Shown: positions 2,886 to 18,741, counted from the stretch's first letter. The stretch: 64,000 nucleotides of DNA from Spirochaetae bacterium HGW-Spirochaetae-2 (GCA_002839355.1 PGXW01000015.1:1-64000); one strand, 5' to 3'. Notes: generated from the letters alone by a model not told the origin. Made by a program: numbers and translations.

Positions 2886-3923
2886 ATGCTTGCATTCATA
2901 TATGATTCGAATAATAAGTTGGGTTTGAAGCAAATTGAAAGACCGACTTCAAGTAATGCCAGTGCTGTCGTCAAGATTGAAGCGACTTCGATTTGCGGAA
3001 CAGATTTACGGGCCTATCGATTTGGATCTTCGAAAATCAAGGCACCACGGACTATAGGTCACGAGATGGTCGGAACAATCGTGGAAGTCGGCAAGGATGT
3101 CAAGAACTTCTCGATTGGGGATCGTGTTCAAGTGGCACCGGCAATTGGATGTGGCGTGTGTCCTTCGTGCAAGAAGGGCAAAACCAATCTGTGTGATTCC
3201 CTGAAAACGATCGGTTTTGAATTTGACGGTACTTTTGCCGAGTATATCCATATCCCGGAAGAAGCCTTTATGCAGGACCACGTTTCAAAGGTTCCGGCAG
3301 GGCTCGATCCTCGAGAAGCTGTTCTGACCGAGCCAATCGCATGTATAGTGAATGCCCAACAGTATCTGGATATTTCAAAGGGAGATATTGTTGCGATCTT
3401 TGGATCTGGTTTCATCGGTACGATGCATGCACAACTTGCATATCATCAAGGAGCAAGCAAAGTGTTCATGATTGATGTAAACGATGCAAGAATTGCCAAA
3501 GCAAAGGAAATGCTGCCTATGCTACATGGTATCAACTCAATGAAAGAGGACCTTTTCCCTACAATTATGCAACATACAGATAACTTCGGGGTGGATGTCG
3601 CCATAACTGCATGTTCGGTTGGCAGTGCCCAATCGGATGCTTTGAGTATTATCGCCAAACAGGGAAGAATCAGCTTGTTCGGCGGGTTACCCAAGGAATC
3701 AAAAGGATTCCTTGATAGCAATATAATTCATTATAAGGAAATTTCCCTATTTGGGGCCCATGCTTCGACTGTTTCCCAGAATAGATACGTACTGGATTTG
3801 ATAGCAAGGGGAAAACTGGATGTGAAACCCTTTATCGAAAAAACCTTTCCACTTTCACAAATCGTGGAAGCCTTCGAAGCCTTGAATAATGAACTCATTG
3901 TAAAAGCGGTCTTGATACCTTAG
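2886..3923 (+). CDS. Zinc-dependent medium-chain alcohol/polyol dehydrogenase
   Basis: This 345-residue protein is a typical MDR-family sugar-alcohol or threonine dehydrogenase. The catalytic zinc cysteine is in TSICGTDLRAY and its partners are in TIGHE. The structural zinc loop has four cysteines (GCGVCPSCKKGKTNLC). The NAD-binding Rossmann motif is FGSGFIG. It probably oxidises a polyol or reduces a keto-sugar feeding the island's pathway; the exact substrate cannot be told. AGAGAGG precedes the ATG. Two DeoR-type operators flank its promoter, tying it to the transporter and BMC operons. Confidence 0.85.
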   Translation: MLAFIYDSNNKLGLKQIERPTSSNASAVVKIEATSICGTDLRAYRFGSSKIKAPRTIGHEMVGTIVEVGKDVKNFSIGDRVQVAPAIGCGVCPSCKKGKTNLCDSLKTIGFEFDGTFAEYIHIPEEAFMQDHVSKVPAGLDPREAVLTEPIACIVNAQQYLDISKGDIVAIFGSGFIGTMHAQLAYHQGASKVFMIDVNDARIAKAKEMLPMLHGINSMKEDLFPTIMQHTDNFGVDVAITACSVGSAQSDALSIIAKQGRISLFGGLPKESKGFLDSNIIHYKEISLFGAHASTVSQNRYVLDLIARGKLDVKPFIEKTFPLSQIVEAFEALNNELIVKAVLIP

Positions 3924-4088: not shown

Positions 4089-4104
4089 TGTTTGAAAAGT
4101 AACA
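4089..4104. promoter_or_regulatory. Operator-like palindrome, one mismatch (ABC importer)
   Basis: TGTTT-GAAAAG-TAACA matches the TGTTA-N6-TAACA pattern at 9 of 10 arm positions. It lies about 140 bases upstream of the importer's -35, further than the other copies, so a direct role is less certain. Confidence 0.4.
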
Positions 4105-4343: not shown

Positions 4344-5405
4344 ATGAAGTCAAGATTGTTAGTAGTTTTCATGGTTTTGCTTCTTGTTGTATCTGTTTTT
4401 ACAGTTTCTGCAGGGGCACAAAAAGAGGCTGTCGCTGAAAAGCCATTGATTGGATTCATCACCAATGGACCCTACGAATTTTGGACTTATTCTGCGGCGG
4501 CAGTCGAGATTCTGAAGAAGGATTTGAATATCGATGTTGAATTCCTGCTTCCTCCAAATGGTCTTCCTGAAGAGCAAAAGCGATTCATCGAGTCGTTGGT
4601 CACCAGGGGTGTGGATGGTATTGGTATCAGTGTAACCGATCCCGATAACGTAACACCATTTTTGAATGAGATTATGGAAACAGTTCCTATGGTGATGTTT
4701 GACAGCGATGCGCCGAATAGCAATAGGTTGGCTTATGTTGGTATGAGCAACTATGCTGCTGGAAGAATGGCTGGACAGGCTGTCAAGGAAGTGCTTCCAA
4801 ATGGTGGCGAGTTCATGATTATTGTTGGCCGGCTGGATGCGCAGAACGCAATCGAACGACGTCAGGGAATGATCGATGAATTGAATGGCGAGCCGTATGT
4901 TGCACAATATCCCGGCAAAATGACTCCCAACACGCCGAATTTGAGATTGGGTGGAGGAAAGTGGACCTTGCTTGAAACGAGAACCGATGGTGGTGACCAG
5001 TCGAAAGCAAAGTCGAATTCTGAAGATGCTATCTTGAAGTTCCCCCAGATGGATTTGATGGTTGGTATGTGGAGCTACAGTTCCCCTGCCATTATCAGTG
5101 CTGTGGCAGATGCCGGACTTCTTGGCAAAATGAAGATAATCGGCTTCGACATGGAAAATGAATTGTTGCAGGCTGTGAAAGACGGACATGCTTATGCGGC
5201 TCTCGGCCAGGATCCTTTCACCTATGCTGTCAGAACAATAGAGATTTTGGCAAAGAAAGCACGTGGTGAAGCGGTTTCCATCCCAGCCGACAAGTTGATC
5301 GATGTCCCCGCATTGAAGATTACTGCGCAGAATATCGATGAAGTTTGGGGCAAGTACAAAGCCCAGCTTTCCGATGGCAACAAGTATCTTGAAGCAACAA
5401 AATAA
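4344..5405 (+). CDS. Periplasmic sugar-binding protein of an Rbs-type ABC importer
   Basis: This 353-residue protein starts with a cleavable signal peptide (hydrophobic residues 5-24, ending SAGA) and no lipobox cysteine. The rest is a Peripla_BP_4 ribose/galactose-type binding fold; the early GFITNGPYEFWTYSAAA stretch aligns with the family's ligand-binding strand. GGAGG lies eight bases before the ATG. It is the first gene of the importer, followed by an intercistronic terminator hairpin and then the ATPase and permease. This layout usually gives excess binding protein over membrane subunits. The ligand is unknown, but the context points to a pentose or deoxy-sugar. Confidence 0.88.
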   Translation: MKSRLLVVFMVLLLVVSVFTVSAGAQKEAVAEKPLIGFITNGPYEFWTYSAAAVEILKKDLNIDVEFLLPPNGLPEEQKRFIESLVTRGVDGIGISVTDPDNVTPFLNEIMETVPMVMFDSDAPNSNRLAYVGMSNYAAGRMAGQAVKEVLPNGGEFMIIVGRLDAQNAIERRQGMIDELNGEPYVAQYPGKMTPNTPNLRLGGGKWTLLETRTDGGDQSKAKSNSEDAILKFPQMDLMVGMWSYSSPAIISAVADAGLLGKMKIIGFDMENELLQAVKDGHAYAALGQDPFTYAVRTIEILAKKARGEAVSIPADKLIDVPALKITAQNIDEVWGKYKAQLSDGNKYLEATK

Positions 5406-5484: not shown

Positions 5485-5571
5485 AAAGACTGGATGGATT
5501 GGGACCGACCGTTGATATAGATCACTGGTACATTATGCAACTTTTGTTTGTTGGACCGTAAGAAGGGTAGG

Positions 5572-7146
5572 ATGGTTGTGGTTGATATGGAAAAAATAAA
5601 AATACACGAAGTAGGGACAACGACGATGGTGAACGAACTACCGGAGAAATATGTGCTTCAAGTAAGGAATATTTCAAAATCGTTTCCAGGTGTTCGAGCT
5701 CTGAACGATGTAAGTTTCAACCTCAAGGTAGGTGAGACTCTTGCATTGGTTGGGGAGAATGGAGCAGGCAAAAGTACGATGATGAAAATCCTTGCAGGAG
5801 TATATGTACCTGATGCAGGGGAAATAATCATAGAGGGAAATGCCGTATCCATTGGCTCTGTCGAACGGGCAACCCAATTTGGTGTAGCGTTGGTCCACCA
5901 GGAGTTGAACCTGTGCGACAACCTGTCGATTGCAGGAAACGTATTTTTGGGACGAGAGCCCAGGCGTCCGCATTTTAAGAAGATAATTGATTTTGATAAG
6001 ATGAATAAAGATGCAGCGGAGGTATTGAAAAAGGTCGGCTTGAATACCAATCCCTCAAAGATTCTGAAAGAATTGCCAATTAGTGCTCAACAATTGGTAG
6101 AAATTTCAAAAGCACTTTCAATACATGCAAAAGTGGTTATGTTTGATGAACCCACAAGCAGTCTCTCTGAGCATGAGACAGAGCAATTGTTCAATGTTAT
6201 CAAGGATTTGAATTCACATGGCATTAGTTGTATTTATATTTCCCATCGACTTGGCGAAGTCAAGGACGTGGCCGACAGGGTAATTGTGTTGCGTGACGGG
6301 AAACTTTCCGGTTCCCTTGATAAGGATGAAATTAATCGCGATAGGATGATTCGATTGATGGTTGGTCGCGATATAGAGAAGATGTATGAAAAACGACATC
6401 TGGTGACGGATAAGGTGCGGCTGCAATTGGAGGACTTGATTGTTCCGAAACAAGCCCGCTTCCCTGTCAATCTAGCTGTCAAGGGGGGCGAAATTGTCGT
6501 TCTCTCCGGCTTGATAGGTGCAGGCCGATCGGAGTTGCTCCATACGATATTTGGAGTTGACAAGAGCTGGGGGGGGAAGATTCTTCTTGATGGAAAAGAA
6601 GTGACAATCAACAAGCCGATTGATGCCATCCGCGCAGGTATGGTTTTGGTTCCTGAAGATAGAAAATTAAACGGGTTGGTTGTCAATTTGGAGGTTGATA
6701 ATAATATCGCACTGCCTGGTTTGTGTGACAATCTATCAAATAGAGGTTTCATTGATAAGAAGAAGGTAATCGAATTGGCTGATACAATGGTGAAGAAGCT
6801 CGATATCCGATTATTTAAAACAACACAACTCGCAGAATCCCTTTCAGGGGGCAATCAGCAAAAAGTTGTCTTGGCAAAATGGTTGGCAATGAATCCTACC
6901 CTGCTTTTGCTCGATGAACCTACTCGTGGAATTGATGTTGGAGCCAAAGCAGAAATCTATAAATTGCTTGAAGACCTGGCTCAATTGGGAGTTGCGATTT
7001 TAGTGGCATCCAGCGAATTGCAAGAAGTTCTTGGAATTGCCGACAGGATTGTCGTGATGTGCGAAGGGCGGATAACAGGCGAATTGGATCCTGCTTCATG
7101 CAGTGAGGAAGATATCATGAAATTAGCAACGGAGCGTTTAAAATGA
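5572..7146 (+). CDS. Sugar ABC importer ATPase, two nucleotide-binding domains (RbsA/MglA-like)
   Basis: This 524-residue protein has two fused ABC domains. The first has Walker A GENGAGKST and Walker B VVMFDEPTS. The second has the degenerate Walker A GLIGAGRSE typical of the RbsA C-terminal half, signature LSGGNQQK and Walker B LLLLDEPTR. It energises import together with the permease, whose ATG overlaps its stop (ATGA). I chose the ATG at 5572, preceded by AGAAGGG; an in-frame TTG at 5548 is also possible. The first 30 or so residues are an unusual extension before the ABC fold. Confidence 0.9.
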   Translation: MVVVDMEKIKIHEVGTTTMVNELPEKYVLQVRNISKSFPGVRALNDVSFNLKVGETLALVGENGAGKSTMMKILAGVYVPDAGEIIIEGNAVSIGSVERATQFGVALVHQELNLCDNLSIAGNVFLGREPRRPHFKKIIDFDKMNKDAAEVLKKVGLNTNPSKILKELPISAQQLVEISKALSIHAKVVMFDEPTSSLSEHETEQLFNVIKDLNSHGISCIYISHRLGEVKDVADRVIVLRDGKLSGSLDKDEINRDRMIRLMVGRDIEKMYEKRHLVTDKVRLQLEDLIVPKQARFPVNLAVKGGEIVVLSGLIGAGRSELLHTIFGVDKSWGGKILLDGKEVTINKPIDAIRAGMVLVPEDRKLNGLVVNLEVDNNIALPGLCDNLSNRGFIDKKKVIELADTMVKKLDIRLFKTTQLAESLSGGNQQKVVLAKWLAMNPTLLLLDEPTRGIDVGAKAEIYKLLEDLAQLGVAILVASSELQEVLGIADRIVVMCEGRITGELDPASCSEEDIMKLATERLK

Positions 7147-8231
7147 TTAAAAGCAATAAAATGGTTGAGTATGTTCGAAGTATGAAGCGGATTGGAGGAA
7201 TTACTTTCTTATTGTTCCTTATCATTTTAGTTACGGCAATTATCAATCCACAGTTCATAAGTTCATATAATATTAGAAATATTCTCCGTTGGACAGGACT
7301 GTTTGGTCTATTGAGTCTTGGAGCCGCTTTTGTTGTCATTACTGGAGGAATAGACTTGTCCATTGGATCTGTGGTTGGACTCATTGGATCCATTGCAGCT
7401 TATCTGATGGTTCATGCGCAGTGGCCTGTTTGGATGGTATTGATTTTTATCATATTGTTGTCGGCAACCATAGGACTGATTCATGGGTTGCTCATTACCA
7501 AGATTCATATGCAAGCCTTCGTTGTCACTCTCTGCGGGCTGTTTGTGTATCGGGGCCTGGCGCGCTATCTGATGGATGATCGGACGCAAGGGTATGGAAC
7601 CGGATTCCAAAATGTAAGATTTCTGGCTGGTGGACGTCTCCCATCTGCATTCTGGCCAGCAGGGCAAGCTCCAAAATTTATCCAGAATTGGTCGATTCCA
7701 ATGCCGTTCCTGTTGCTGATCGCTATAGCTGTCTTGATGGCGATTGTTCTAAATAAAACAATATATGGGCAACATCTGAAAGCTACAGGAAGAAATGAAT
7801 GTGCTTCCCGGTTCAGTGGAATCCACACTGATAATGTTTTGATAATTGCCTATGTGATCAGTTCAACACTTGCAGGACTTGGAGGATTGCTATTTTCCCT
7901 CGATTTGAACACCGTGCAGCCTTCCTCGATGGGAAACATGTATGAATTGTATGCCATTGCCGGATGTGTTGTTGGAGGTGTGAGTCTGAGAGGTGGAGAC
8001 GGCTCTATCCTAGGCGTGATCCTTGGAACGGCAATCGTCCGTGTCTTATACAACGCGATCAATGTAGCTGGTGTGTCGACCCAATTGGAACAAGTGGTCC
8101 TTGGGCTTGTAATTCTGATTGGTGTCGCCGCGGATGAAGTCGTACGGATGATCGCTGCCCAACGAAAAGTGCGTGAATCTATGATTCTAGCCCAAAAGGC
8201 ATTGGAAAAATCCAAACAAACGGAATCCTAG
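7143..8231 (+). CDS. Sugar ABC importer permease (RbsC-like)
   Basis: This 362-residue polytopic membrane protein has the BPD_transp_2 pattern: an N-terminal helix, the GLLSLGAAFVVITGGIDLSIGS segment, and the conserved cytoplasmic GRNECASRFSGIHTDNV loop that contacts the ATPase. The start overlaps the ATPase stop by four bases, indicating translational coupling. A 47-residue insertion around RFLAGGRLPSAFWPAG between helices is larger than in E. coli RbsC. It completes the importer with the genes at 4344 and 5572. Confidence 0.9.
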   Translation: MIKSNKMVEYVRSMKRIGGITFLLFLIILVTAIINPQFISSYNIRNILRWTGLFGLLSLGAAFVVITGGIDLSIGSVVGLIGSIAAYLMVHAQWPVWMVLIFIILLSATIGLIHGLLITKIHMQAFVVTLCGLFVYRGLARYLMDDRTQGYGTGFQNVRFLAGGRLPSAFWPAGQAPKFIQNWSIPMPFLLLIAIAVLMAIVLNKTIYGQHLKATGRNECASRFSGIHTDNVLIIAYVISSTLAGLGGLLFSLDLNTVQPSSMGNMYELYAIAGCVVGGVSLRGGDGSILGVILGTAIVRVLYNAINVAGVSTQLEQVVLGLVILIGVAADEVVRMIAAQRKVRESMILAQKALEKSKQTES

Positions 8232-8252: not shown

Positions 8253-9347
8253 ATGGCAGACTATTTGGGAAAAAGTTGGACCAGGGAAGGTCTAAGAGCC
8301 TATATTTCGGATGAATCGGCCATAGCTGGTGCCAGTCCTTTTGTATTCAATGATGGGAAAGCTGCAGGAGTTCAAGGCATCGATGTCTATACTGGAAGTG
8401 GCCTTGCATTTCAAGTGATTCCTGGAAGGGCTATGGATATCTATGGATGCAGCTATAAGGGCATTCCCCTGCAATTCACATCTGCGACTGGTATGACTTC
8501 ACCAGGTTATTATGAAGAGCCGGGGTTGAATTGGCTGAGGACGTTCTTCGGTGGACTACTTTCCACATGTGGTATCACCAATAGTGGAGCACCCTCCACA
8601 GACAATGGAAATGCATTTGGTCTCCATGGTCGGATTGGAAACGCCGGTGCTGAGCATGTTTCGATTTCTCAAAAGTGGATTGGGGATGAATACGTTATCT
8701 CGATTTCGGGAAGAATGCGAGAAGCCTTTGTAATGGGCGAAAACTTGACCTTGACCCGAACGATATCGACAAGGCTTGGATCCAATACGATACGTATCGA
8801 GGATGCGATTGAGAATCGTGGTTTTGAGCCACAACCGCTTATGATGCTGTACCATTTCAATTTTGGGTTCCCGTTGCTTTCGGAAAAATCAAGAATTGTA
8901 ATCCCAAGCAAGGCAACAACGCCTCGAGACAAGCAATCGGAAGTGGATAATGGTGTATCCGAGTGTTTTGAATATCCCAAGCCGACCCAAGGATATAAAG
9001 AGAAAGTGTTTTTCCATTCCGTTGGAGCTGAATCCGACGGGAAGACCTTTGTGGCATTGGTCAATCCGGATATTCAGGGAAAACCCTTGGCAATCATGTT
9101 GCGTTACAATCGCAATGAATTGCCCCAATTGACCGAATGGAAAATGCCTGGGAAAGGCTGTTATGTTTGTGGTTTGGAACCTGGTACAGTCAATCCGATA
9201 GGTAGGGCGAAAGCACGCGAAACCAAACTCCTACCAATGCTGGGTCCACAAGAAGTGTACAATGTTGCAGTCGAATTGGAAGTTTTGGATTCAATCGACA
9301 AGATCAATGGATTGGACGTGTATGCCAAGTCGTTGAGGAACTCTTAA
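8253..9347 (+). CDS. DUF4432 family protein, galactose-mutarotase-like fold
   Basis: This 364-residue protein resembles the DUF4432 branch of the aldose-1-epimerase superfamily. The family-like motifs are VIPGRAMDI near residue 53, a GLHGRIGNAG stretch near residue 128, and MLYHFNFGFPLL near residue 198. DUF4432 proteins often sit in sugar-catabolic operons; their reaction is not generally established and epimerisation or mutarotation is the best guess. It follows the permease by 21 bases with an AAGGAGA ribosome site, so it probably acts on the imported sugar. Confidence 0.75.
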   Translation: MADYLGKSWTREGLRAYISDESAIAGASPFVFNDGKAAGVQGIDVYTGSGLAFQVIPGRAMDIYGCSYKGIPLQFTSATGMTSPGYYEEPGLNWLRTFFGGLLSTCGITNSGAPSTDNGNAFGLHGRIGNAGAEHVSISQKWIGDEYVISISGRMREAFVMGENLTLTRTISTRLGSNTIRIEDAIENRGFEPQPLMMLYHFNFGFPLLSEKSRIVIPSKATTPRDKQSEVDNGVSECFEYPKPTQGYKEKVFFHSVGAESDGKTFVALVNPDIQGKPLAIMLRYNRNELPQLTEWKMPGKGCYVCGLEPGTVNPIGRAKARETKLLPMLGPQEVYNVAVELEVLDSIDKINGLDVYAKSLRNS

Positions 9348-9370
9348 GTATTCCCATACGGAGGTTTGTA

Positions 9371-10588
9371 ATGGAACAATCAGAGATTTCCCACATAGTT
9401 AAGGAAGCATTGAAAACCCATGATGGTTTGTTGCGGATGCGACCGAGCTGGGTAGCCAGGACCTTTCTCGAACCGGGAAAGCGGTTGGGGTTGAAGGAAC
9501 ATGAATACCCTGTGGGCAAACGGGGTTTTATCTGTGAACGATGGTTGGGCTCGGAGACAGAAGTCGACAACGAGGTGAAATTTAAAAACGAAGGGTTGTC
9601 GCTGTTGGATATCCCCGGTCATGATATTTTGCTTCGGGATGCGGTTCAGGCTACAAAGGCGGAGATCTTGGGAGCTGAATATGCAAAAACCCACAAGAAC
9701 CTCCTCAGGCTTGCCAAGATCTATGACTACAAGGGAAGGATCTTTTACCATTTTCATCAAACACAAGAGGAAGCGTCAAAAGTGGGTGCTACCTCGAAGG
9801 AAGAAGCCTACTATTATCCGGAAGGTGTTGATTTGGGACCACATCCAGAGACATTCTTCGGGGTGCATCCATATATTGTGGAGCAGAACAAGCAATATGA
9901 GATATTGCTGCCTTGTCTCAAAAAGTGGGATAGCGAATTGATACTCCAGCATTCAAGGGCATATTTGAACGTTCCTGGCGAGGGTTTCCATCTGCCAGCT
10001 GGTGTATTGCATGCTCCGGGTTCTGCCCTAACAATTGAATTGCAGGAACCTTCGGATGTCATGTCGGTTTTCCAATCCAATGTTGAGGGGAAGCAAATTT
10101 CCAAAGAGTTGCTGTTCAAGGATGTGGAAAAGAAAGTTGTGCAGGAAAAACAGGAGAAGGCTGTTTTGGACCAGCTCAATTGGGATATCAATGGGGACCC
10201 GTATTTCTATGAAAATCGTCATACTCCCCCAATCCTGATTGAAGAGACGGCGACCGATGAAAGTCAAGAATATTGGATATACTATAATACTACACGCTTC
10301 AGCGGGAAAAAGTTGGTAGTCAAACCCCACAAGAAGGTTTTAAGCAAAGATATGGGTGTCTACAATATTCTTGTCTGGAAAGGTCGTGGCAAGGCTGACG
10401 AGCTGTTGGTCGAAGGGCAGAATTTCGGGAAAGATGAATTGTTGGTTGTAGACGAAAAAGCCCGCAAGGGAGTCGTATACGAAAACACTGGCGATACCGA
10501 CTTGGTGATTCTAAAATTCTTTGGACCGGATATAAACAATTCGGTTATTCCATTCATTCCAAAATACCCGGAACAAAAGAAATCTTAA
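9371..10588 (+). CDS. Cupin-type sugar (phosphate) isomerase-like protein, related to type I phosphomannose isomerase
   Basis: This 405-residue protein has histidine-rich cupin motifs recalling ManA: FYHFHQ near residue 124, HPETFFGVHP near 157, and LPAGVLHAPGSALTIELQEPSD near 210-230, which parallels the ManA metal and substrate region. A second cupin-like domain follows. ManA proteins interconvert mannose-6- and fructose-6-phosphate. In this setting a lyxose-, ribose- or deoxy-sugar isomerase is equally likely, and I do not assign a substrate. It is 23 bases after the DUF4432 gene, within the same operon. Confidence 0.6.
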   Translation: MEQSEISHIVKEALKTHDGLLRMRPSWVARTFLEPGKRLGLKEHEYPVGKRGFICERWLGSETEVDNEVKFKNEGLSLLDIPGHDILLRDAVQATKAEILGAEYAKTHKNLLRLAKIYDYKGRIFYHFHQTQEEASKVGATSKEEAYYYPEGVDLGPHPETFFGVHPYIVEQNKQYEILLPCLKKWDSELILQHSRAYLNVPGEGFHLPAGVLHAPGSALTIELQEPSDVMSVFQSNVEGKQISKELLFKDVEKKVVQEKQEKAVLDQLNWDINGDPYFYENRHTPPILIEETATDESQEYWIYYNTTRFSGKKLVVKPHKKVLSKDMGVYNILVWKGRGKADELLVEGQNFGKDELLVVDEKARKGVVYENTGDTDLVILKFFGPDINNSVIPFIPKYPEQKKS

Positions 10589-10601
10589 TAAGGAGAGGAT
10601 T

Positions 10602-11990
10602 ATGAAAAAGCCAAAAATTGGACTATTGGGAATCATGCATGGACTTTACGATGAAAAGCAACCGGAAATTACCGCTCAACAGGAAAAATTTGCTAGAGAG
10701 GTAATTGGGAAACTTTCTGATAGAGCCGATATCACTTTCAAGAAAGCAGCAAAAACCAGAACCCAAATAGAAGAGACTGTCGCGGAATATAATAACGGTG
10801 GATATGATGGCATCATGATTATTATGCTTCTGTATAGTCCAGGCTTTACGTTGATTGGAGCATTGAGGGAGAACAGACTTCCTGTGATGCTCGCAAATGT
10901 CCAACCATTACCAGTGGTGACTACCGACTGGGATTGGAGTCGATTGACTACGAACCAAGGTATCCACGGAGCACAAGACACTGCAAATATGTTGTTACAT
11001 GCGGGAATAAAGCCAGCGATAATTACTGAGGATTGGAAAAGTGACGCCTTCAAGGAATTTTTCACCGATTGGGCGAAAGCAGCTCAAACCCACAACGCCC
11101 TTAAGAAAATGCGCTTGGCTGTTTTCGGTAGAATGAAAGGGATGGGAGATATAGTCGGCAATGATGAGAAATTCTATCGGATGATCGGCCCCGAGGTCTT
11201 TTTTGAGGGTATTGGTGACATCTACAAATTGATGCAAGAAGTGACTGACAAACAGATTGCGGAAAGCATAGCCGAGGACAAGAAGAATTTCCAGGTTGAT
11301 CCCAAGTTGACACTTGAAAGACATCAGTATGCGGCGAGGATGCAATTGGCCTTCGAGCGGTTCCTGATAGAGAATCGTTTCAATGGATTCAGTGCGAATT
11401 TTGGAGTTTTCGCTGAGGATGGAAGGTTCAAGCAAATCAATATGTTGGCTGCCTCGAACCTCATGGCAAAAGGTTATGCCTATTCGAACGAAGGTGATGT
11501 GCATACTGCTGCCTTGGTAGGTGCTGGTCACATACTTGTTGGGGATGCACATTTTACGGAAATGTATTCTCTTGACTATGAGAAGGATTCCGCTTTGATG
11601 AGTCATATGGGAGAAGGAAACTGGAAAATTGCCCGAAAAGATCGCCCGATCAAATTGATCGACAGGGAACTGGAGATTGGCGGATTGGATAATCCGCCGA
11701 CAGTAGTCTTCAGCGCTCAACCGGGACCTGGGACTTTGGTCTCTTTGGCTCCTCTCGATGATGTTGATTACCGTCTGGTGATTTGCAACGGATCAATTCT
11801 CGATACACCCGAGTATAAGAATGTTCCAATGACATATTTCCATTTCAAGCCTGACACTGGTATCAGGAGTGCAATGGATAATTGGATGCGATACGGTGGA
11901 ACCCACCACCAGACCCTTACTCTGGGGACTTATGGAAGAAGGTGGGAAATGTTGTGTGACATGTTAAAGATCGCATACGAGAAAGTGTAA
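10602..11990 (+). CDS. L-arabinose/L-fucose isomerase-like protein
   Basis: This 462-residue protein has the fucose/arabinose isomerase fold. Four metal and catalytic positions of the AraA type can be matched: the glutamate in NEGDVHTA, the glutamate in FTEMYSLDY, the histidine in SHMGEGNW and the first histidine in GGTHHQTL. AraA-type enzymes turn an aldopentose into a ketopentose with Mn2+. It lies 13 bases after the cupin gene and before a sugar kinase, the usual isomerase-then-kinase order of pentose pathways. A strong terminator follows. It is diverged from AraA proper, so the substrate may be another pentose or deoxy-sugar. Confidence 0.75.
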   Translation: MKKPKIGLLGIMHGLYDEKQPEITAQQEKFAREVIGKLSDRADITFKKAAKTRTQIEETVAEYNNGGYDGIMIIMLLYSPGFTLIGALRENRLPVMLANVQPLPVVTTDWDWSRLTTNQGIHGAQDTANMLLHAGIKPAIITEDWKSDAFKEFFTDWAKAAQTHNALKKMRLAVFGRMKGMGDIVGNDEKFYRMIGPEVFFEGIGDIYKLMQEVTDKQIAESIAEDKKNFQVDPKLTLERHQYAARMQLAFERFLIENRFNGFSANFGVFAEDGRFKQINMLAASNLMAKGYAYSNEGDVHTAALVGAGHILVGDAHFTEMYSLDYEKDSALMSHMGEGNWKIARKDRPIKLIDRELEIGGLDNPPTVVFSAQPGPGTLVSLAPLDDVDYRLVICNGSILDTPEYKNVPMTYFHFKPDTGIRSAMDNWMRYGGTHHQTLTLGTYGRRWEMLCDMLKIAYEKV

Positions 11991-12009
11991 GCGGGAATGG
12001 GTTTTGCAG

Positions 12010-12051
12010 CGTGGATGTCTGGGCTGGTAAGAAGCCGACATCCACGTTTTT
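12010..12051 (+). terminator. Rho-independent terminator after the isomerase gene
   Basis: CGTGGATGTC (12010-12019) pairs perfectly with GACATCCACG (12037-12046), followed by TTTTT. It ends the importer/isomerase operon. Confidence 0.88.
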
Positions 12052-12117
12052 CTATTGGACATAAGCCCTGTTCCTATTATGGATGGAGATTTTATCGATT
12101 GTATTCGGGAGGAATTG

Positions 12118-13635
12118 ATGGAAAAGAAATATGTGATGGCGATTGATCAAGGAACCACTGGAACCCGAGTCATCTTGTTCGATCATGAGGGACAAGTCCA
12201 TTCGACAGCTTATCATGAGATAAAACAGATATATCCGCATCCTGGTTGGGTTGAGCACAATCCAGTGGAGTATTGGGAAACAGTACTGGATTGTACCCGG
12301 GAGATATTGGCCGAAGGTAGGGCGAAAATTGAGGAAATTGCCTGCATCGGAATAACAAACCAGCGTGAAACAACAATATTATGGGACAAAATTACCGGTG
12401 AACCGTACTATAATGCCATCGTTTGGCAATGTAGAAGGAGTGCGGAAATCTGCGAGACCTTGAAAGAGAAGGGATATGAGCCAACAATCCGCAAGAAGAC
12501 CGGTCTCGTGGTGGACGCCTATTTTTCTGGAACAAAGATTCGATGGATCTTGGACAATGTTCCCGGAATAATGGATCGGATCAGGGAGAACCGTGTCTGC
12601 ATGGGCACAATCGATTCGTATCTTATCTGGAAACTGAGTGGAGGGGCTTCCCATGTAACCGATTACAGCAATGCCTCGCGAACAATGCTTCTTGATGTAC
12701 ACAATCTTTCTTGGGACCAGGAGTTGCTGGATATGTTGGATATTCCCGCTTCGATCCTCCCCGAATTGAAACCGAATAGCGGGCATATGGCAACAACATC
12801 TGCCAAGGTTTTTTTCGGACAGGAAATTCCAATCTCCGGATCAGCTGGCGACCAGCATGCGGCTACTTTCGGGCAGACCTGTTTTGAAAAGGGAATGGCA
12901 AAGAATACATATGGTACCGCTCTGGCCTTGATGATGAATATCGGCGAGACGTTTGTTCCTTCCAAGCATGGGCTAACCACAGATTTGCTCTGGAATATAC
13001 ATGGCAAGACCTCGTATGGATTTGAGGGTGTGATTTTTATTGGTGGTGCTGCTGTACAGTGGTTGCGGGACGGATTGAAGATCATTGAAAGTGCATCCAT
13101 GTGCGATCGGCTTGCCGAGAAAGTTCCGGATACCGGCGATTTGTACCTGGTTCCTGCATTTACGGGACTTTGTGCTCCGTATTGGGATATGTATGCGCGA
13201 GGTCTCCTCATCGGAATAACCCGCGGGACCACACAGGAACATATCGCCAGAGCTGCTTTGGAATCGATGGCCTATCAGACGAGAGATGTTGTCGATGCAA
13301 TGGTGAAAGATTCCCGAGTCACTCCCGAAACCTTGCGGGTGGATGGTGGTGCCTCGAAAAGTGATTTCCTGATGCAATTCCAATCCGACATCCTAGGTAT
13401 CCCTGTAGAACGTCCTGTGGTTTCGGAGATGGCTGCACGTGGAGCCGCATACCTGGCAGGACTGGGGATAGGCTTTTGGAGTGACCTGAAGGAATTGAGT
13501 CGACATTGGAAGCGTGAGCGTCTTTTTGAGCCAACGATAAGCGTCGATCAACGGGAAAGCCTGTACGACGGATGGCGAGAAGCAGTCAACCGATCCCTAC
13601 AGTGGGACAATAGGAGCAAATTGAAAATAAAGTGA
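12118..13635 (+). CDS. FGGY-family carbohydrate kinase, glycerol-kinase-like
   Basis: This 505-residue protein is collinear with glycerol kinase. The ATP motif DQGTTGTR, the substrate arginine and glutamate in NQRETT, the tyrosine in DAYFSGTK and the catalytic aspartate in SGSAGDQHA are all present. The loop that carries the fructose-1,6-bisphosphate site in E. coli GlpK (KGGTR region) is missing, so that feedback is probably absent. It sits between a pentose-isomerase-like gene and the BMC operon, so it may phosphorylate a keto-sugar rather than glycerol. GGGAGG lies five bases before the chosen ATG. It follows a terminator, so it needs its own, weak-looking promoter near 12055-12083. Confidence 0.82.
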   Translation: MEKKYVMAIDQGTTGTRVILFDHEGQVHSTAYHEIKQIYPHPGWVEHNPVEYWETVLDCTREILAEGRAKIEEIACIGITNQRETTILWDKITGEPYYNAIVWQCRRSAEICETLKEKGYEPTIRKKTGLVVDAYFSGTKIRWILDNVPGIMDRIRENRVCMGTIDSYLIWKLSGGASHVTDYSNASRTMLLDVHNLSWDQELLDMLDIPASILPELKPNSGHMATTSAKVFFGQEIPISGSAGDQHAATFGQTCFEKGMAKNTYGTALALMMNIGETFVPSKHGLTTDLLWNIHGKTSYGFEGVIFIGGAAVQWLRDGLKIIESASMCDRLAEKVPDTGDLYLVPAFTGLCAPYWDMYARGLLIGITRGTTQEHIARAALESMAYQTRDVVDAMVKDSRVTPETLRVDGGASKSDFLMQFQSDILGIPVERPVVSEMAARGAAYLAGLGIGFWSDLKELSRHWKRERLFEPTISVDQRESLYDGWREAVNRSLQWDNRSKLKIK

Positions 13636-13706: not shown

Positions 13707-13734
13707 TTGACATTGTTATAAAATTAACTACAAT
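13707..13734 (+). promoter_or_regulatory. SDR promoter with operator between -35 and -10
   Basis: TTGACA (13707-13712), 16 bases, TACAAT (13729-13734). The spacer holds TGTTA-TAAAAT-TAACT (13714-13729), one mismatch from the island palindrome, in the classic repressor position. Confidence 0.6.
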
Positions 13735-13781: not shown

Positions 13782-14436
13782 ATGCGACCTGATAGGTTTG
13801 TTGATAAGGTTGCCTTTATTACTGGTGGCGGGCAAGGTATGGGGCAACAGCTGGCAATCGATATGGCGAAGGAAGGCGCACGGGTTGTTGTCGTGGATAT
13901 CGATGTTCAAGGTTTGGAGGAAACGAGAACTCTTCTCGAAGAACAGAATTCCGATTATTTGATTATCGAGTGCGATATTTCGGACGATGTCCAGGTTGCA
14001 AAAGCAATCGGAAAAACTATTGGGAAGTATAGTCGATTGGATATCCTGGTAAACAATGCCGGCTTGTTGCGGAATGCAACAATCGAGGAAACAACCAACG
14101 ATTTGATCGATAAGACGATCGATATCAATATCAAGGGGATTCTATACGCAATTCGTGAAGTAACTCCAATCATGAAGCGTCAATCATATGGACGTATTGT
14201 AAATGTTTCCTCGATCACTGGTTACCTGCAACGCGATCGCCCCACATGCAGTCATGACAAAGATGATGTACTACTGGGACGATGCGAAGAAAGATGCGAT
14301 GGCAGAGAAGATTCCAGTGAAGCGACTTGGTACTGTGAAGGACATGTCCAATCTGATGATGTTCTTATCCTCGGATGATGCTTCCTTCATAAATGGAGAG
14401 GTCGTCAATATAAACGGTGGATACTATATGGACTAG
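13782..14436 (+). pseudogene. Short-chain dehydrogenase/reductase broken by an internal deletion
   Basis: The 5' frame gives a normal SDR start: the NAD motif TGGGQGMG, the NNAG motif in DILVNNAGLL, and GRIVNVSSITG with the catalytic serine. At that point the frame changes. The rest of the family continues from about 14227 in another frame (CNAIAPHAVMTKMM through the C-terminal INGEVVNINGG). The part between, about 38-40 residues with the catalytic YxxxK, is absent, so some 110-120 bases are missing. The in-frame product is a 198-residue chimera. The gene has a strong promoter and a GGAGG site, so it was functional recently. An assembly error cannot be excluded. Confidence 0.8.
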
Positions 14437-14487: not shown

Positions 14488-14503
14488 TGTTATAGAAGTT
14501 ACA
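14488..14503. promoter_or_regulatory. Operator-like palindrome, one mismatch (BMC operon)
   Basis: TGTTA-TAGAAG-TTACA ends seven bases before the BMC operon -35. It links the microcompartment operon to the DeoR regulon. Confidence 0.55.
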
Positions 14504-14540: not shown

Positions 14541-14609
14541 GGTAGCAAATCTAGTGCAATGGAATGGAACGGGTAACTTCTGAAGTTAAAAATGAAAAGG
14601 GGTAAAAGT

Positions 14610-15248
14610 ATGGGGGTAGATCTTAGAACTTATGTTTTTCTGGATTCGCTTCAATCGCAAATGGCATCGTTTATTTCAACAATCTCAAAAGGATATTTCC
14701 CTGTAGCGGAGCAAGCATGCGCCATCTTGGAAATATCACCGGGAATCGAGATAAACCGAGTAACCGACATTGCTCTCAAAGCGACTGATGTCAAGCCAGG
14801 GATTCAAATTGTAGAACGATTGTTCGGTTTGCTGGAAGTTCATTCCGATAGCCAGGCAGATGTCAGACAAGCAGGTGAAGCGGTACTTAAAGCCTTGGGG
14901 TTGAATGAGGAAGATCGGATAAAGCCACAAATTCTGACTAGTCAACTAATCAAGAATATGAGTGATCACCATTGCCAGTTGATCAATAAAGTTAGACACG
15001 GAAATATGGTGCTTCGTGGCGATACCCTGTATGTCCTTGAGTTGCAGCCCGCCGCATATGCCTTCTATGCCGCCAACGAAGCGGAAAAGGCCTCCCATAT
15101 CAATATTGTCGAGGTGGTCGGTTATGGAAGTTACGGCAGGGTCTATATCTCGGGGAATGAAGCGGAGGTTCTTATTAGCAAAGAGATTGTTGAGAGTAGG
15201 ATCGCTTCGTTGTCTGGTAGGGTTTTGAGTGATAAGAGCAAGGAATAA
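14610..15248 (+). CDS. BMC-T shell protein (tandem BMC domains)
   Basis: This 212-residue protein has two BMC folds in one chain. The first includes ACAILEISPG and FGLLEVHSD; the second includes LYVLELQPAAYAFYAANEAEK and VEVVGYGSYGRVYISG. Such proteins form pseudohexamers that occupy shell facets and often have a gated pore for larger molecules. I chose the ATG at 14610, with AAGGGG seven bases upstream, over an ATG 18 bases earlier. It is the first gene of the microcompartment operon and the only BMC-T in it. The length matches the EutL/PduB class, though the residue-level subfamily is uncertain. Confidence 0.85.
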   Translation: MGVDLRTYVFLDSLQSQMASFISTISKGYFPVAEQACAILEISPGIEINRVTDIALKATDVKPGIQIVERLFGLLEVHSDSQADVRQAGEAVLKALGLNEEDRIKPQILTSQLIKNMSDHHCQLINKVRHGNMVLRGDTLYVLELQPAAYAFYAANEAEKASHINIVEVVGYGSYGRVYISGNEAEVLISKEIVESRIASLSGRVLSDKSKE

Positions 15249-15277: not shown

Positions 15278-15580
15278 ATGGCGGAAATTTTTGATAGCGC
15301 ATTGGGTATGATCGAGACAAGGGGCTTCGCTGCGATGGTCGAAGCATCGGATGCAATGAGTAAGGCTGCGAAAGTTCAGCTGGTTGGATATCAACAGATT
15401 GGAGGCGGTTATGTGACTGCGATTGTCCGAGGTGATGTCGCTGCTGTCAGGGCCGCTATAGAGGCGGGAACTGTTGCCGCCCAGAAGGTTGGCGAAATTG
15501 TATCCTCCCACATAATTCCGAGACCGCACGCGATGGTCGATGAAGTATTGCCATTGGGTCGGCCCGAGAAGAAGAAGTAA
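15278..15580 (+). CDS. BMC-H hexameric shell protein (PduA/EutM/CcmK type)
   Basis: This 100-residue protein has the canonical Pfam00936 sequence: ALGMIETRGFAAMVEASDAM at the start, the RGDVAAVRAA helix and SSHIIPRPH near the end. Six copies tile the flat facets of the shell. The pore loop reads QIGGGYVTAIVRG rather than the usual KIGSGLVTVIVRG, so the central pore is lined by glycines and should differ in selectivity. It is the only BMC-H gene here and so must supply most of the shell. AAAGGAG precedes the start. Confidence 0.95.
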   Translation: MAEIFDSALGMIETRGFAAMVEASDAMSKAAKVQLVGYQQIGGGYVTAIVRGDVAAVRAAIEAGTVAAQKVGEIVSSHIIPRPHAMVDEVLPLGRPEKKK

Positions 15581-15654: not shown

Positions 15655-15963
15655 ATGGTGTTGGGGAGAGTTGTTGGAACGGTGGTGTCTACTGCAAAAG
15701 CTGAACAGCTTGAATCACTCAAGTTGCTCCTAGTCGAAAAAATATCAATTCCGAGCCTTGCAGGAGTCAATGATTTTGTTGTTGCGCTGGATTCTGTTGG
15801 AGCCAATGTCGGCGAAATCGTATTTTATGTCACAGGTTCCAGTGCACGGCTGACTGCTGTTTCCAAGGGGAAACCTTCCGATGCAACCATCGCAGCTATT
15901 GTCGACAATATTGACTTGTATGGGAACATGATCTATCGGAAGGATCAAAATCTTGAGGATTAG
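15655..15963 (+). CDS. BMC-P pentameric vertex protein 1 (EutN/CcmL)
   Basis: This 102-residue protein has the EutN/CcmL opening VLGRVVGTVVSTAKAEQLES and the closing SDATIAAIVDNID. Pentamers cap the twelve corners of a polyhedral shell. I chose the ATG at 15655, preceded by GGAGGA. The open frame runs further upstream, but the extension is not conserved. It is the first of four BMC-P paralogues in the operon. Confidence 0.92.
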   Translation: MVLGRVVGTVVSTAKAEQLESLKLLLVEKISIPSLAGVNDFVVALDSVGANVGEIVFYVTGSSARLTAVSKGKPSDATIAAIVDNIDLYGNMIYRKDQNLED

Positions 15964-15966
15964 TCT

Positions 15967-16254
15967 ATGAATTTTGCCAGGGTGTGCGGTTCGGTTGTCA
16001 GCAATACTCGTGACGAAAGCTATATCTCTTCGAGATTTATGCTAATCGAAAGTTGTGATTCGGAAGCAAAGGGTAGCGGAAGCTATCTGGTGGCTCTTGA
16101 TATTATCGATTCCCGACCGGGAGACATGGTGCTCGTTTGCCAGGGCAGTTCATGCAGGTGGACATTCGAGACGGAGAACTTGCCGGTCGATACGCTGATT
16201 GTCGGGATTGTCGATAGGGTGTACTCGGGGAATAAGACATTGTACCTCGGGTAA
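15967..16254 (+). CDS. BMC-P pentameric vertex protein 2 (EutN/CcmL), diverged
   Basis: This 95-residue protein has the EutN-like RVCGSVVSNTRDESYISSRF opening, the central LVALDIIDSRPGDMVLVCQG and the closing LIVGIVDRVYSG. It is more diverged from the other three, with a shortened central loop and several extra cysteines. It starts three bases after the previous stop, so translation is probably coupled. Confidence 0.88.
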   Translation: MNFARVCGSVVSNTRDESYISSRFMLIESCDSEAKGSGSYLVALDIIDSRPGDMVLVCQGSSCRWTFETENLPVDTLIVGIVDRVYSGNKTLYLG

Positions 16255-16279: not shown

Positions 16280-17710
16280 GTGAGTCAAAGTATTGAAGAA
16301 ACAGTTCGTACATTGGTTGAAAAATTGGTCTTGGAGTATAGCGCTTCCTCTGTAGGAGCGGAACATATCGCACCATCCCAATATGCGAGCGGTATCTTTC
16401 CCACTATGGATCTAGCCGTAAAGGCTGCCTATGAAGCTCAACGACACCTTGTCGAGCTCCCGCTTGAAAAGAGGAAAGAGATAGTCCAGGCCATGCGGGA
16501 AACCGCTGTGGATCATGCCCAGGAATTTGCCGAGATGGCTGTCCAGGAAAGTGGCCGAGGAAATGTTGCCGATAAGATTGCAAAAAACATGCTGGCAGCA
16601 AAGAAGACTCCCGGGGTTGAGGATGTTGAGACCTCGGCATACTCCGATGAGCACGGACTTTCTCTCGTGGAGAGAGCTCCTTATGGTGTTATCGGATCTA
16701 TCACTCCCGTAACAAACCCCACCGCCACTATTATCAATAACGGTATCAGCATGATAAGTGGTGGCAACTCGGTTGTGTTCAATCCTCACCCTGGAGCGAA
16801 AAATGTTTCCTGCTTTGCGATTGAAGTCCTCAATGCGGCAATCGAGCGAGTTGGAGGACCAAGGAATCTTTTGGTTTCACTGGCCCAGCCGACGATTGAA
16901 TCCGCAAATGAGATGATGCGACATCAAAAGATTTCCCTATTGGTTGTTACCGGGGGTCCTGGAGTAGTCAAGGCTGCAATGAATAGCGGAAAAAAGGTGA
17001 TAGCTGCAGGGCCGGGTAATCCTCCTTGCGTAGTCGATGAAACCGCCAAGATACAAAAAGCTGCGAGAGATATAGTCGCAGGTGCTAGTTTCGACAACAA
17101 TTTGGTTTGTATCTGTGAAAAGGAAGTACTCGTTGTCAAGAGTGTTGCGAACGAGTTGATAAGCGAGATGCAAAAGGTCGGTGCCTACTTGTTATCCGAT
17201 CAGCAGACCAAATCGTTGTTGGACCAAGTGATTGAAGTACCCGGAACGATGAATGTCGAGGGTGTGATAAAGAGGGAATACGTGGGGAAGTCTCCAAGCT
17301 TTCTCGCTTCCTTGATTGGTGTTACGGTTCCTGAAAGCACCAGGTTGCTTATTTGTGATGTCGATGCGGGAAACCCTTTGGTCTGGACGGAACAATTGAT
17401 GCCCTTCTTGCCGATTGTGAGAATGGAAAATGTAGACCAATGCATAGAATTGGCAGTCCAATGTGAACATGGGTTCAGGCACACCGCGATTATGCATTCG
17501 TTGAATGTGGAAAAGCTGAGCAAGATGGCTAGACAGATGAATTGTTCACTATTTGTCAAGAATGGCCCTTGTTATGCGGGTTTGGGAAATGGTGGTGCGG
17601 GGTATACTTCGTTCACAATTGCCAGTCCCACAGGAGAAGGGCTTACGCGCGCTCGTACCTTCACTAGGGAGAGACGATGCACTTTGGTTGATTATTTTAG
17701 GATCATCTAG
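16280..17710 (+). CDS. CoA-acylating aldehyde dehydrogenase, microcompartment type (PduP/EutE)
   Basis: This 476-residue enzyme turns acetaldehyde (or propionaldehyde), CoA and NAD+ into acyl-CoA and NADH. The NAD-site motif SITPVTNPTATIINN and the active cysteine in ASFDNNLVCICEKEV are clear. Residues 3-21 (SIEETVRTLVEKLVLEYSAS) form a likely amphipathic helix, followed by a linker, as in the PduP encapsulation peptide. The start is a GTG with AAGGAGAT upstream. DeoC in the same operon makes acetaldehyde, so this is the oxidative branch inside the shell, with the iron alcohol dehydrogenase regenerating NAD+. Confidence 0.95.
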   Translation: MSQSIEETVRTLVEKLVLEYSASSVGAEHIAPSQYASGIFPTMDLAVKAAYEAQRHLVELPLEKRKEIVQAMRETAVDHAQEFAEMAVQESGRGNVADKIAKNMLAAKKTPGVEDVETSAYSDEHGLSLVERAPYGVIGSITPVTNPTATIINNGISMISGGNSVVFNPHPGAKNVSCFAIEVLNAAIERVGGPRNLLVSLAQPTIESANEMMRHQKISLLVVTGGPGVVKAAMNSGKKVIAAGPGNPPCVVDETAKIQKAARDIVAGASFDNNLVCICEKEVLVVKSVANELISEMQKVGAYLLSDQQTKSLLDQVIEVPGTMNVEGVIKREYVGKSPSFLASLIGVTVPESTRLLICDVDAGNPLVWTEQLMPFLPIVRMENVDQCIELAVQCEHGFRHTAIMHSLNVEKLSKMARQMNCSLFVKNGPCYAGLGNGGAGYTSFTIASPTGEGLTRARTFTRERRCTLVDYFRII

Positions 17711-17729: not shown

Positions 17730-17999
17730 GTGAAATTAGGTCGGGTAATCGGAACGGTGGTCAGTACGAAGAAATTGGAATGTTTCGATAGGAAGAAGTT
17801 GTTGTTGCTTCAGCCGATTGATGAGAACGGACAACCGGTGGGAAAGCCAATTGCCGCTATGGACACCGTACAAGCCGGAGAAGGCGATACAGTGATGTTC
17901 GAAGGTGGCAAAGAGGCAGCTCAAGCTTTGGACAATTGGTTCAATCCCTGTGACGCCACTATCATCGGTATTGTAGATGGGATATCAACGGGAGAGTAG
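17730..17999 (+). CDS. BMC-P pentameric vertex protein 3 (EutN/CcmL)
   Basis: This 89-residue protein begins VKLGRVIGTVVSTKKLECFD and ends ATIIGIVDGIS, matching EutN/CcmL over its full length. I chose the GTG at 17730, with AGAGGAG seven bases upstream, instead of the much earlier ATG in the same open frame, because the family starts exactly here. The next BMC-P gene starts one base after its stop. Confidence 0.92.
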   Translation: MKLGRVIGTVVSTKKLECFDRKKLLLLQPIDENGQPVGKPIAAMDTVQAGEGDTVMFEGGKEAAQALDNWFNPCDATIIGIVDGISTGE

Positions 18000-18000
18000 T

Positions 18001-18273
18001 ATGATTCTTGCTAAAGTCCTTGGTTCGGTGACCTGTACCATAAAACATGAACATTACAAAGGGAAGAAGATTCTTATAGTTCAGCCGGTAGGTCCAAACG
18101 CGACACCATCGGGGAAGTCTTTCCTTGCTCTCGATGGGGTGCAGTCGGGAATTGGAGACTTGGTTTTGGTTTTTGATGAAGGTGGCTCGGCAAGGGATAT
18201 TCTCGGTGATAAGGATCTCTTGACAATCAGGACAATAATTGGTGGGATTGTAGATTCGGTATCGAAGGATTAG
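18001..18273 (+). CDS. BMC-P pentameric vertex protein 4 (EutN/CcmL)
   Basis: This 90-residue protein begins MILAKVLGSVTCTIKHEHYK and has LALDGVQSGIGDLVLVFDEG and IIGGIVDSVS. The ATG at 18001 has GGAG six bases upstream, inside the end of the previous gene. It is most like BMC-P 3 next to it, suggesting a tandem duplication. Confidence 0.92.
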   Translation: MILAKVLGSVTCTIKHEHYKGKKILIVQPVGPNATPSGKSFLALDGVQSGIGDLVLVFDEGGSARDILGDKDLLTIRTIIGGIVDSVSKD

Positions 18274-18279
18274 GAAATA

Positions 18280-18741
18280 GTGGATATGGTTAAAAACGTT
18301 GCTTTGGGTTGTGATCATGGGGCATATCAGCAAAAGGTCTTTCTGAAGACGTTCCTGGAGAATCTCGGGTACAACGTCCTTGATGTTGGTTGCGACATAA
18401 ACGAAAAAGTTGATTATCCCGATATCGCATATGCAGTATGTAGGAAAGTTGTCACCGAATCATGTGATAGGGGAATTATGTTGGACGGGGCGGGAATCGG
18501 TTCGTCTATGGTTTGCAATAAGGTTAGGGGTATACGTGCTGCATTGTGTTATGATTTGAAAACGGTTGTAAACAGCAGGATGCATAACAATGCGAATGTG
18601 CTTACATTGGGAGGTCCATTGCATAAAGCCGACGAATTGAGCTTAATGGTAAGAACTTGGCTAGAAACTCCGTTCGAAGGTGGACGGCATATAGTAAGAA
18701 TCAATAAGATGATGTCCATAGAGAGAGGGGGATTGAATTGA
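18280..18741 (+). CDS. RpiB/LacAB-family sugar-phosphate isomerase, catalytic cysteine replaced
   Basis: This 153-residue protein matches RpiB along its length (ALGCDHGAYQQK near the start, NKVRGIRAALCYD, RMHNNANVLTLGG). RpiB interconverts ribose-5- and ribulose-5-phosphate. The usual active-site CGTGIG reads DGAGIG here, so the cysteine base is replaced by aspartate. This suggests a changed substrate or mechanism, not necessarily loss of function. The histidine in RMHN is kept. The start is a GTG (ATG two codons later is an alternative). It overlaps deoC by one base. In SPU-type BMCs an RpiB relative accompanies DeoC. Confidence 0.85.
   Translation: MDMVKNVALGCDHGAYQQKVFLKTFLENLGYNVLDVGCDINEKVDYPDIAYAVCRKVVTESCDRGIMLDGAGIGSSMVCNKVRGIRAALCYDLKTVVNSRMHNNANVLTLGGPLHKADELSLMVRTWLETPFEGGRHIVRINKMMSIERGGLN

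Follow-up and report, generated by a model that had tools for sequence, protein, structure and literature searches.

A predicted sugar cassette under the operator of a putative sugar phosphate utilisation microcompartment in Spirochaetae bacterium HGW-Spirochaetae-2

Here, we report that a four-gene sugar cassette (8253-13635, + strand) of Spirochaetae bacterium HGW-Spirochaetae-2 (GCA_002839355.1, PGXW01000015.1:1-64000; this stretch of 64,000 nucleotides is called the window) forms one unit with the regulator, dehydrogenase and importer upstream and with a bacterial microcompartment (BMC) shell locus downstream, a coupling that is well supported. Our proposal, to which we give a probability of roughly 0.5, is that the cassette serves as front end to the neighbouring compartment, which by its gene content is of the known sugar phosphate utilisation (SPU) type, that both stand under one DeoR-family regulator, and that the ketose phosphate made from the imported sugar feeds the aldolase DeoC. 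A sequence-only reading had already placed the four genes correctly, on the + strand directly behind one importer, and had taken them for a ketose-forming and phosphorylating path. Given the combination of isomerase and kinase, this is still the best reading of the cassette, and the link to DeoC is stronger than noted then, as one operator spans cassette and microcompartment. The host is a metagenome-assembled genome of 3.6 Mb (99.8% complete) and, judging from its named relatives, belongs to a Sphaerochaetaceae-type family. The locus reads on the + strand, from the regulator to the kinase in its front part and from a short-chain dehydrogenase/reductase (SDR) to the iron alcohol dehydrogenase in its rear part, as follows.

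1834-2760, + strand: DeoR-family transcriptional regulator, probable repressor of the regulon (PF00455/PF08220)
2886-3923, + strand: zinc-dependent dehydrogenase, threonine/inosose-dehydrogenase-like (PF08240/PF00107)
4344-5405, + strand: periplasmic sugar-binding protein (PF13407)
5548-7146, + strand: sugar ABC transporter ATP-binding protein (PF00005, twice)
7143-8231, + strand: sugar ABC transporter permease (PF02653)
8253-9347, + strand: DUF4432 protein, predicted aldose-1-epimerase (mutarotase) fold (PF14486; PDB 3ty1)
9371-10588, + strand: predicted phosphomannose-isomerase-fold cupin (predicted structure; invariant metal-site residues)
10602-11990, + strand: AraA-like aldose-ketose isomerase of a separate subfamily, metal ligands kept (Pfam domains, alignment)
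12118-13635, + strand: FGGY kinase of the GlpK clade, acceptor pocket remodelled, Phe270 to Ala (profiles, alignment, tree)
13782-14436, + strand: SDR dehydrogenase, broken here (comparison with loci L023 and L024)
14592-15248, + strand: BMC-T (CcmP-like) shell protein (NF053796, 288 bits)
15278-15580, + strand: BMC-H shell protein (profile search)
15655-15963, + strand: BMC-P vertex protein 1 (PF03319)
15967-16254, + strand: BMC-P vertex protein 2 (PF03319)
16280-17710, + strand: CoA-acylating aldehyde dehydrogenase with an N-terminal encapsulation-peptide-like helix (NF011927, 666.7 bits, cut-off 403)
17730-17999, + strand: BMC-P vertex protein 3 (profile search)
18001-18273, + strand: BMC-P vertex protein 4 (profile search)
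18280-18741, + strand: RpiB-family protein in which Asp replaces EcRpiB Cys66 and Ala replaces Thr68 (profile, alignment)
18741-19544, + strand: DeoC-family aldolase with encapsulation-peptide-like N-terminus MDQNSLVELITKEVLKKI (TIGR00126, 275 bits; K167, K201 and D102 kept)
19591-20772, + strand: iron-containing alcohol dehydrogenase (PF00465)

The evidence that ties cassette and compartment together begins with the palindrome TGTTA-N6-TAACA, which was first spotted by eye, its statistics being calculated afterwards, i.e., post hoc. Allowing at most one mismatch, there are eight sites in the 64 kb (0.95 expected; none of 100 shuffles reaches eight), seven of which lie within this locus, and the intergenic regions of the locus hold six sites in five regions against 0.17 expected. 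These six, found by motif scan and given without strand, are:

1816-1831: TGTTAGAATTGTAACA, before the DeoR gene
2795-2810: TGTTAGAAGAATTACA, before the Zn-dehydrogenase gene
2856-2871: TGTTAAAAATATAACA, before the Zn-dehydrogenase gene
4089-4104: TGTTTGAAAAGTAACA, before the binding-protein gene
13714-13729: TGTTATAAAATTAACT, before the SDR gene, inside a promoter-like site at 13707-13734
14488-14503: TGTTATAGAAGTTACA, before the shell genes

The sites before the SDR and DeoR genes overlap promoter-like hexamers. Because the motif was found post hoc, an independent test matters: 5.1 kb of intergenic DNA by the core genes of 14 other SPU loci, sequence that had not been used for motif discovery, contains three perfect operators (0.008 expected; 0 of 1000 shuffles). 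Two of these lie in L089, a locus that bears the phosphopentomutase gene DeoB, in the stretch that separates its shell genes from the divergent DeoR gene. The sites by SPU genes of other families are at 12545-12695 in L089, 5691-5727 in L084 and 11986 in L098, and their recurrence suggests a conserved SPU regulator. The DeoR-family regulator of the window has DeoR as its best NCBIfam match (163.7 bits, under the cut-off of 244) and is 35-39% identical to regulators adjoining other SPU loci, so that operator and regulator type are common to this locus and others of the type. To judge from these sequences, regulator and operator appear to be an old SPU control circuit under which the sugar cassette was placed in this lineage. 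A terminator scan returned no more candidates than shuffled sequence did.

The second line of evidence is gene order. The whole unit recurs in the same order in HGW-Spirochaetae-4 (L023), at 86-100% identity gene by gene, and a member of another genus (L024) keeps the order from the binding protein to the first shell gene at 72-87% identity, where its contig ends; a second contig of that genome carries a DeoC fragment, 82% identical, followed by the same alcohol dehydrogenase. Since the order is kept in both, the cluster is not a chance neighbourhood. The isomerase subfamily (at least 87% identity) occurs in three of 139 family genomes, and DeoC matches that extend into the targeting peptide occur, among these 139, in the same three. 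Open reading frames in the GC-rich relative loci were called with codon-usage scoring. Please note that the SDR gene (13782-14436) has lost its YxxxK motif and is shifted in frame by a 101-bp deletion, the L023 and L024 copies being intact; it could be a pseudogene or an assembly error. The Zn-dehydrogenase (2886-3923) is 43% identical to a counterpart adjoining DeoC in another SPU locus, L098.

The shell locus carries BMC-H, BMC-T and BMC-P shell proteins, a pfam01791 DeoC-type aldolase (definition in PMC8217296), a pfam02502 RpiB-type protein and its own aldehyde dehydrogenase, i.e., the shell genes and the three enzyme families by which the SPU type is defined (PMC4207490, PMC8217296). SPU is among the commonest microcompartment types, with >280 loci in 26 phyla (PMC8217296), and in the published reading DeoC splits DNA-derived 2-deoxyribose 5-phosphate and RpiB isomerises ribose 5-phosphate (PMC4207490, PMC8217296), a function read from annotations only. 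With the loci described before (Axen 2014, Sutter 2021) the present one shares BMC-H, the CcmP-like BMC-T, BMC-P, the acylating aldehyde dehydrogenase and the RpiB and DeoC families; it differs in having an importer, DUF4432 protein, cupin, isomerase and kinase ahead of the shell genes within the same regulon, in its own alcohol dehydrogenase and in lacking nucleoside genes, our assignment being to the SPU type and not to one of its seven published subtypes. The fucose/rhamnose aldolase microcompartments (PVM, GRM5) follow a similar plan, in which an aldolase acts on a sugar phosphate and the aldehyde is handled inside the shell, but they use class II aldolases where this locus has the class I enzyme DeoC.

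In the scheme that we propose, the DUF4432 protein would present the imported aldose in the right anomeric form, the AraA-like enzyme would convert it to the ketose, with the phosphomannose-isomerase-fold cupin as a second sugar isomerase, and the GlpK-clade kinase, turned ketose kinase, would make the ketose phosphate. This would be converted to, or presented as, an open-chain aldose phosphate, a step for which the RpiB-family protein is the candidate; the shell-targeted DeoC would cleave the aldose phosphate, giving a triose phosphate plus an aldehyde of two carbons, which the acylating dehydrogenase would turn into acyl-CoA, and the iron-dependent alcohol dehydrogenase would recycle the NADH. 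Gene content, the shared operator, co-occurrence, the altered kinase pocket, the catalytic sites of isomerase and DeoC and the targeting peptides are the parts of the scheme that are read directly from the sequences. We further infer that the sugar is a ketose of four or five carbons, which may be L-configured or, like apulose, branched, that the RpiB-family protein takes the step assigned to it, and that the two-carbon aldehyde would be glycolaldehyde if the C2 hydroxyl is kept.

The start of the kinase is more likely the ATG at 12118, preferred as it lies behind a GGAGG-like site and giving 505 amino acids, than the TTG at 12055, where the listed open reading frame began. The enzyme scores 752 and 683 bits against two GlpK models, above both curated cut-offs, is 53% identical to E. 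coli GlpK and retains the signature residues Arg83, Glu84, Tyr135 and Asp245. Phe270, one of the five GlpK specificity residues and in contact with glycerol (PMC3245297), is Ala in the window kinase and in both of its orthologues; of 27 other GlpK-clade homologues compared from the family, 26 have Phe there, and only L142, which groups with AplK, has Ser. This is the telling change in the kinase, one that the sequence-only reading did not name, and it is accompanied by Gly268 to Ala, Cys269 to Leu and Gln247 to His (mature numbering), on a branch separate from GlpK. What had been named was the missing fructose-bisphosphate loop. The site is indeed gone, Lys and Glu standing in place of Gly230 and Arg236 of EcGlpK, but we dropped its loss as a diagnostic mark, since the majority of ordinary GlpKs in the family are without the site as well.

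AplK is the kinase of the E. coli D-apiose cluster, and strains carrying the cluster grow on apiose (PMC13001218). It also belongs to the GlpK clade, has Ser at 270, and has in common with the window kinase Gln248 to His and Leu273 to Met (Met1 numbering). In the tree the window kinase groups on the side of GlpK and not within the AplK clade, and its sequence is without the motif GDSH...TYGTGSSVM; the tree placement led us to reject it as an AplK orthologue. Because AplK is without Phe270 too, yet the window kinase stands outside its clade, the same GlpK pocket has been opened twice, once for a branched ketopentose, and the window enzyme is probably a ketose kinase and not a glycerol kinase. 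GlpK makes sn-glycerol 3-phosphate and also accepts dihydroxyacetone and L-glyceraldehyde; because of this product and these substrates, L-configured or branched ketoses are the first candidates.

The AraA-like isomerase has the domain architecture of AraA, with three L-arabinose isomerase domains in Pfam, and in the alignment keeps the four metal ligands, which we take to be Glu306, Glu333, His350 and His450 in AraA numbering. It differs in scoring 174.4 bits, far under the AraA equivalog cut-off of 622, and in being only 26% identical to the genome's own AraA, so that by alignment and score it is an enzyme that keeps the metal site and is not an L-arabinose isomerase. The nearest non-spirochaete relative found (41%) lies on a Subdoligranulum plasmid with an FGGY kinase and a class II aldolase, an isomerase-kinase-aldolase operon with the same logic as the scheme proposed here.

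The cupin matched no Pfam family, its ManA match was sub-threshold (TIGR00218, class I phosphomannose isomerase, 15.6 bits against a cut-off of 116.2), and a PDB sequence search with it was uninformative. Its AlphaFold2 model (mean confidence, pLDDT, 93.7) finds phosphomannose isomerases far ahead of any other solved fold (Foldseek E 1.9e-17, TM up to 0.79 by target length), and the metal-binding site His127, His129, Glu145 and His214 is invariant; the predicted structure is that of the phosphomannose-isomerase fold. This cupin family without a Pfam model recurs across diverse sugar operons (9371-10588, loci L004-L022 and L026), its relatives including one in a tetritol-like Arthrobacter operon with a DAK-type kinase, RpiB and TIM. 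The DUF4432 protein (PF14486, 323.9 bits) matches PDB 3ty1, "hypothetical aldose 1-epimerase", at 1e-27, and is by this similarity of the aldose-1-epimerase fold; a literature search on DUF4432 returned nothing informative.

The BMC DeoC has canonical catalytic residues (D16, T18, D102, K167 and K201, with Lys167 as the Schiff-base lysine). Its helix-like N-terminal segment, common to SPU DeoCs and absent in non-BMC relatives, fits what would be expected of an encapsulation peptide. In the tree the window DeoC stands apart from other SPU DeoCs and joins, with 100/99 support, those encoded in three sugar operons. These operons hold combinations of FGGY kinase, ribulose-phosphate 3-epimerase, L-ribulose-5-phosphate 3-epimerase and SDRs, and in two of the three DeoC has no targeting peptide and there are no shell genes nearby. 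Where the other SPU enzymes and the canonical DeoCs mostly carry Asn and Ser, members of the clade have Ala at the EcDeoC Pro106 position and lack the phosphate-site Ser238. These features favour a sugar-route clade, and they do not imply a different substrate. Our literature search on glycolaldehyde release by DeoC found nothing informative.

Further DeoC genes were seen along the way. In L122 and L123, pentulose-type operons that also encode SDRs and sugar-phosphate epimerases contain close relatives of the SPU DeoC that have no targeting peptide. The L024 genome has a second DeoC with targeting peptide (L115, G261:C80, 148-939), 3' of which lie a ribulose-phosphate 3-epimerase, an L-ribulose-5-phosphate 3-epimerase-like gene, an AraD/FucA-like aldolase or epimerase and an FGGY kinase; this may be a further SPU locus, one served by a different sugar front end. 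In the window, a second DeoC gene 3 kb downstream (22773-23447) has Glu in place of the Schiff-base Lys167, as in the near-identical L023 genome (L117), and its product is probably not an aldolase.

The step between ketose phosphate and DeoC had been called not obvious. That statement overlooked the RpiB-family gene, which is the obvious candidate for a ketose-to-aldose step, and the published BMC type; it stands insofar as the RpiB candidate is itself doubtful, its isomerisation residues being replaced. In RpiB, Cys66 acts as the base in proton transfer between C1 and C2, and Thr68 shuttles a proton between O2 and O1 (PMC4783025); mutation of the Cys abolishes the activity of related enzymes (PMC4783025), and the Thr68 position is conserved as Ser or Thr (PMC3212906). 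Among Spirochaetota loci, all 13 alignable SPU RpiB sequences have Asp for Cys66 and Ala for Thr68 (EcRpiB numbering), none having Cys66, the mycobacterial-form Glu75, or Thr or Ser at 68, and all retain the ring-opening His99 and the phosphate-binding Arg133 and Arg137. Loci with the Asp/Ala form are 18280-18741 in the window and L081, L082, L083, L084, L088, L089, L092, L093, L094, L097 and L098. Because the isomerisation residues are replaced in 13 of 13, the published assignment of SPU RpiB as ribose-5-phosphate isomerase is, on this alignment, not safe, though the Asp might serve as a replacement base. A 2-deoxy sugar has no use for an O2 shuttle, and so the Asp/Ala change also fits a ring-opening helper for 2-deoxyribose 5-phosphate. 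Several SPU RpiBs of other genomes have an N-terminal extension of encapsulation type, and the window RpiB has none. An apparent RpiB-DeoC fusion in L079/L080 is not claimed, its N-terminal part being without RpiB residues. Another RpiB-family gene of the same genome (L155, G000:C68, 48483-48856) is split over two frames.

Several points weigh against the proposal that the cassette feeds DeoC. The active site of DeoC is that of a normal 2-deoxyribose-5-phosphate aldolase, and an ordinary DeoC needs a substrate without a C2 hydroxyl, the very group that aldose-ketose isomerases need. The RpiB-family protein lacks the residues for aldose-ketose isomerisation, so that the link through it is a putative one, and the argument from the kinase pocket is one from sequence only. 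Co-regulation is no proof of a single pathway; the co-occurrence comes from three genomes, two of them near-identical, i.e., about two independent observations, and the other spirochaete SPU loci compared carry no such sugar cassette. Our literature search on glycolaldehyde release by DeoC found nothing informative.

The canonical DeoC residues also suit an explanation that we consider somewhat unlikely, i.e., that DeoC acts only on nucleoside-derived 2-deoxyribose 5-phosphate, the ketose phosphate of the cassette enters central metabolism via transketolase or epimerases, and cassette and compartment merely share their control as genes of scavenging. It matches the published SPU reading (PMC8217296; PMC4207490), and other spirochaete SPU loci adjoin a nucleoside-type (Bmp) importer (L079, L080) or DeoB (L089). 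The genome has seven PNP/UDP phosphorylase-family matches and, as far as found, no DeoC with a Schiff-base lysine other than that of the BMC, which for this reason may serve both sugar sources. The regulon, however, contains no nucleoside gene, the closest DeoCs sit in sugar operons, and the operator and the same three genomes are common to cassette and compartment. Neither DeoB nor a pyrimidine-nucleoside phosphorylase was found in the 99.8% complete genome, a weak point, since DeoB is rare across the whole family (above cut-off in 3 of 138 genomes, DeoC being nearly universal) and its absence carries little weight.

If DeoC keeps its ordinary chemistry, imported 2-deoxyribose or a close 2-deoxy sugar might also be phosphorylated directly at the terminal carbon by the altered kinase, the isomerase and cupin handling accompanying pentoses and RpiB being only a ring-opening partner that gives the aldehyde form. 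Such a route, which we regard as improbable, explains why SPU RpiB keeps His99 and the phosphate arginines and loses the isomerisation base and the O1-O2 shuttle threonine (roles in PMC4783025), and it fits the canonical DeoC residues. An AraA-type isomerase between importer and kinase would, however, be superfluous. To our knowledge, the known deoxyribokinases are PfkB-type and not FGGY enzymes, and the known product of GlpK has L configuration.

The D-apiose cluster (aplK, aptA, aptB; apsI), described in PMC13001218 citing Carter et al. 2018, resembles the cassette in its ribose-type ABC importer, its isomerase of the fucose/arabinose-isomerase superfamily and its GlpK-clade kinase without Phe270. 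That the cassette is a D-apiose pathway of this kind, leading from apiose to apulose, apulose 4-phosphate and transketolase independently of DeoC, is nonetheless quite improbable: the genes profiled between 1834 and 20772 include no transketolase and an aldolase microcompartment stands in its place, the isomerase is of another branch, without detectable BLAST similarity to the apiose-cluster isomerase, of which it was rejected as an orthologue, and the kinase is no AplK. An AplK-like kinase with a split transketolase elsewhere in the genome (G000:C75) speaks for such a pathway, and it also means that the genome already has an AplK-like set. That locus (L157, 7026-16861) encodes the GlpK-clade kinase, the split transketolase, a DUF4432-SIS fusion, a Zn-dehydrogenase and a DRL-type oxidoreductase, and is likely a D-apiose cluster whose kinase is named glycerol kinase by profile models. 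Plain L-arabinose or glycerol utilisation, the case that the sequence-only reading had set as its refutation, is hardly credible and was rejected, for all that the profile models give the family names and the kinase its high GlpK scores, because Phe270 is lost, the isomerase is far under the AraA cut-off, and canonical AraA (739 bits) and GlpK (678 bits) are encoded elsewhere in the genome.

Profile scores can thus mislead in assigning "glycerol kinase" labels, the D-apulose kinase and the window kinase both being without the glycerol-contacting residue. That the pathway may be new, as suggested before, is possible, and there is a realistic chance that the locus leads to undescribed DeoC/RpiB chemistry. 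We tentatively add a broader view, which we think unlikely as it stands, in which SPU is a general platform that splits pentose phosphates with exchangeable front ends, "RpiB" is a remodelled ring-opening enzyme or a new isomerase, and the DeoC clade makes glycolaldehyde and triose phosphate from a pentose phosphate that is non-deoxy and possibly branched (apiose-like); if true, this would be an undescribed aldolase reaction and pentose route. The loss of the RpiB residues, together with a cassette under the SPU operator, makes the question of the SPU substrate testable with one operon and a handful of sugars, and the cassette points to a different use of a widespread compartment that was linked before to the breakdown of DNA sugar.

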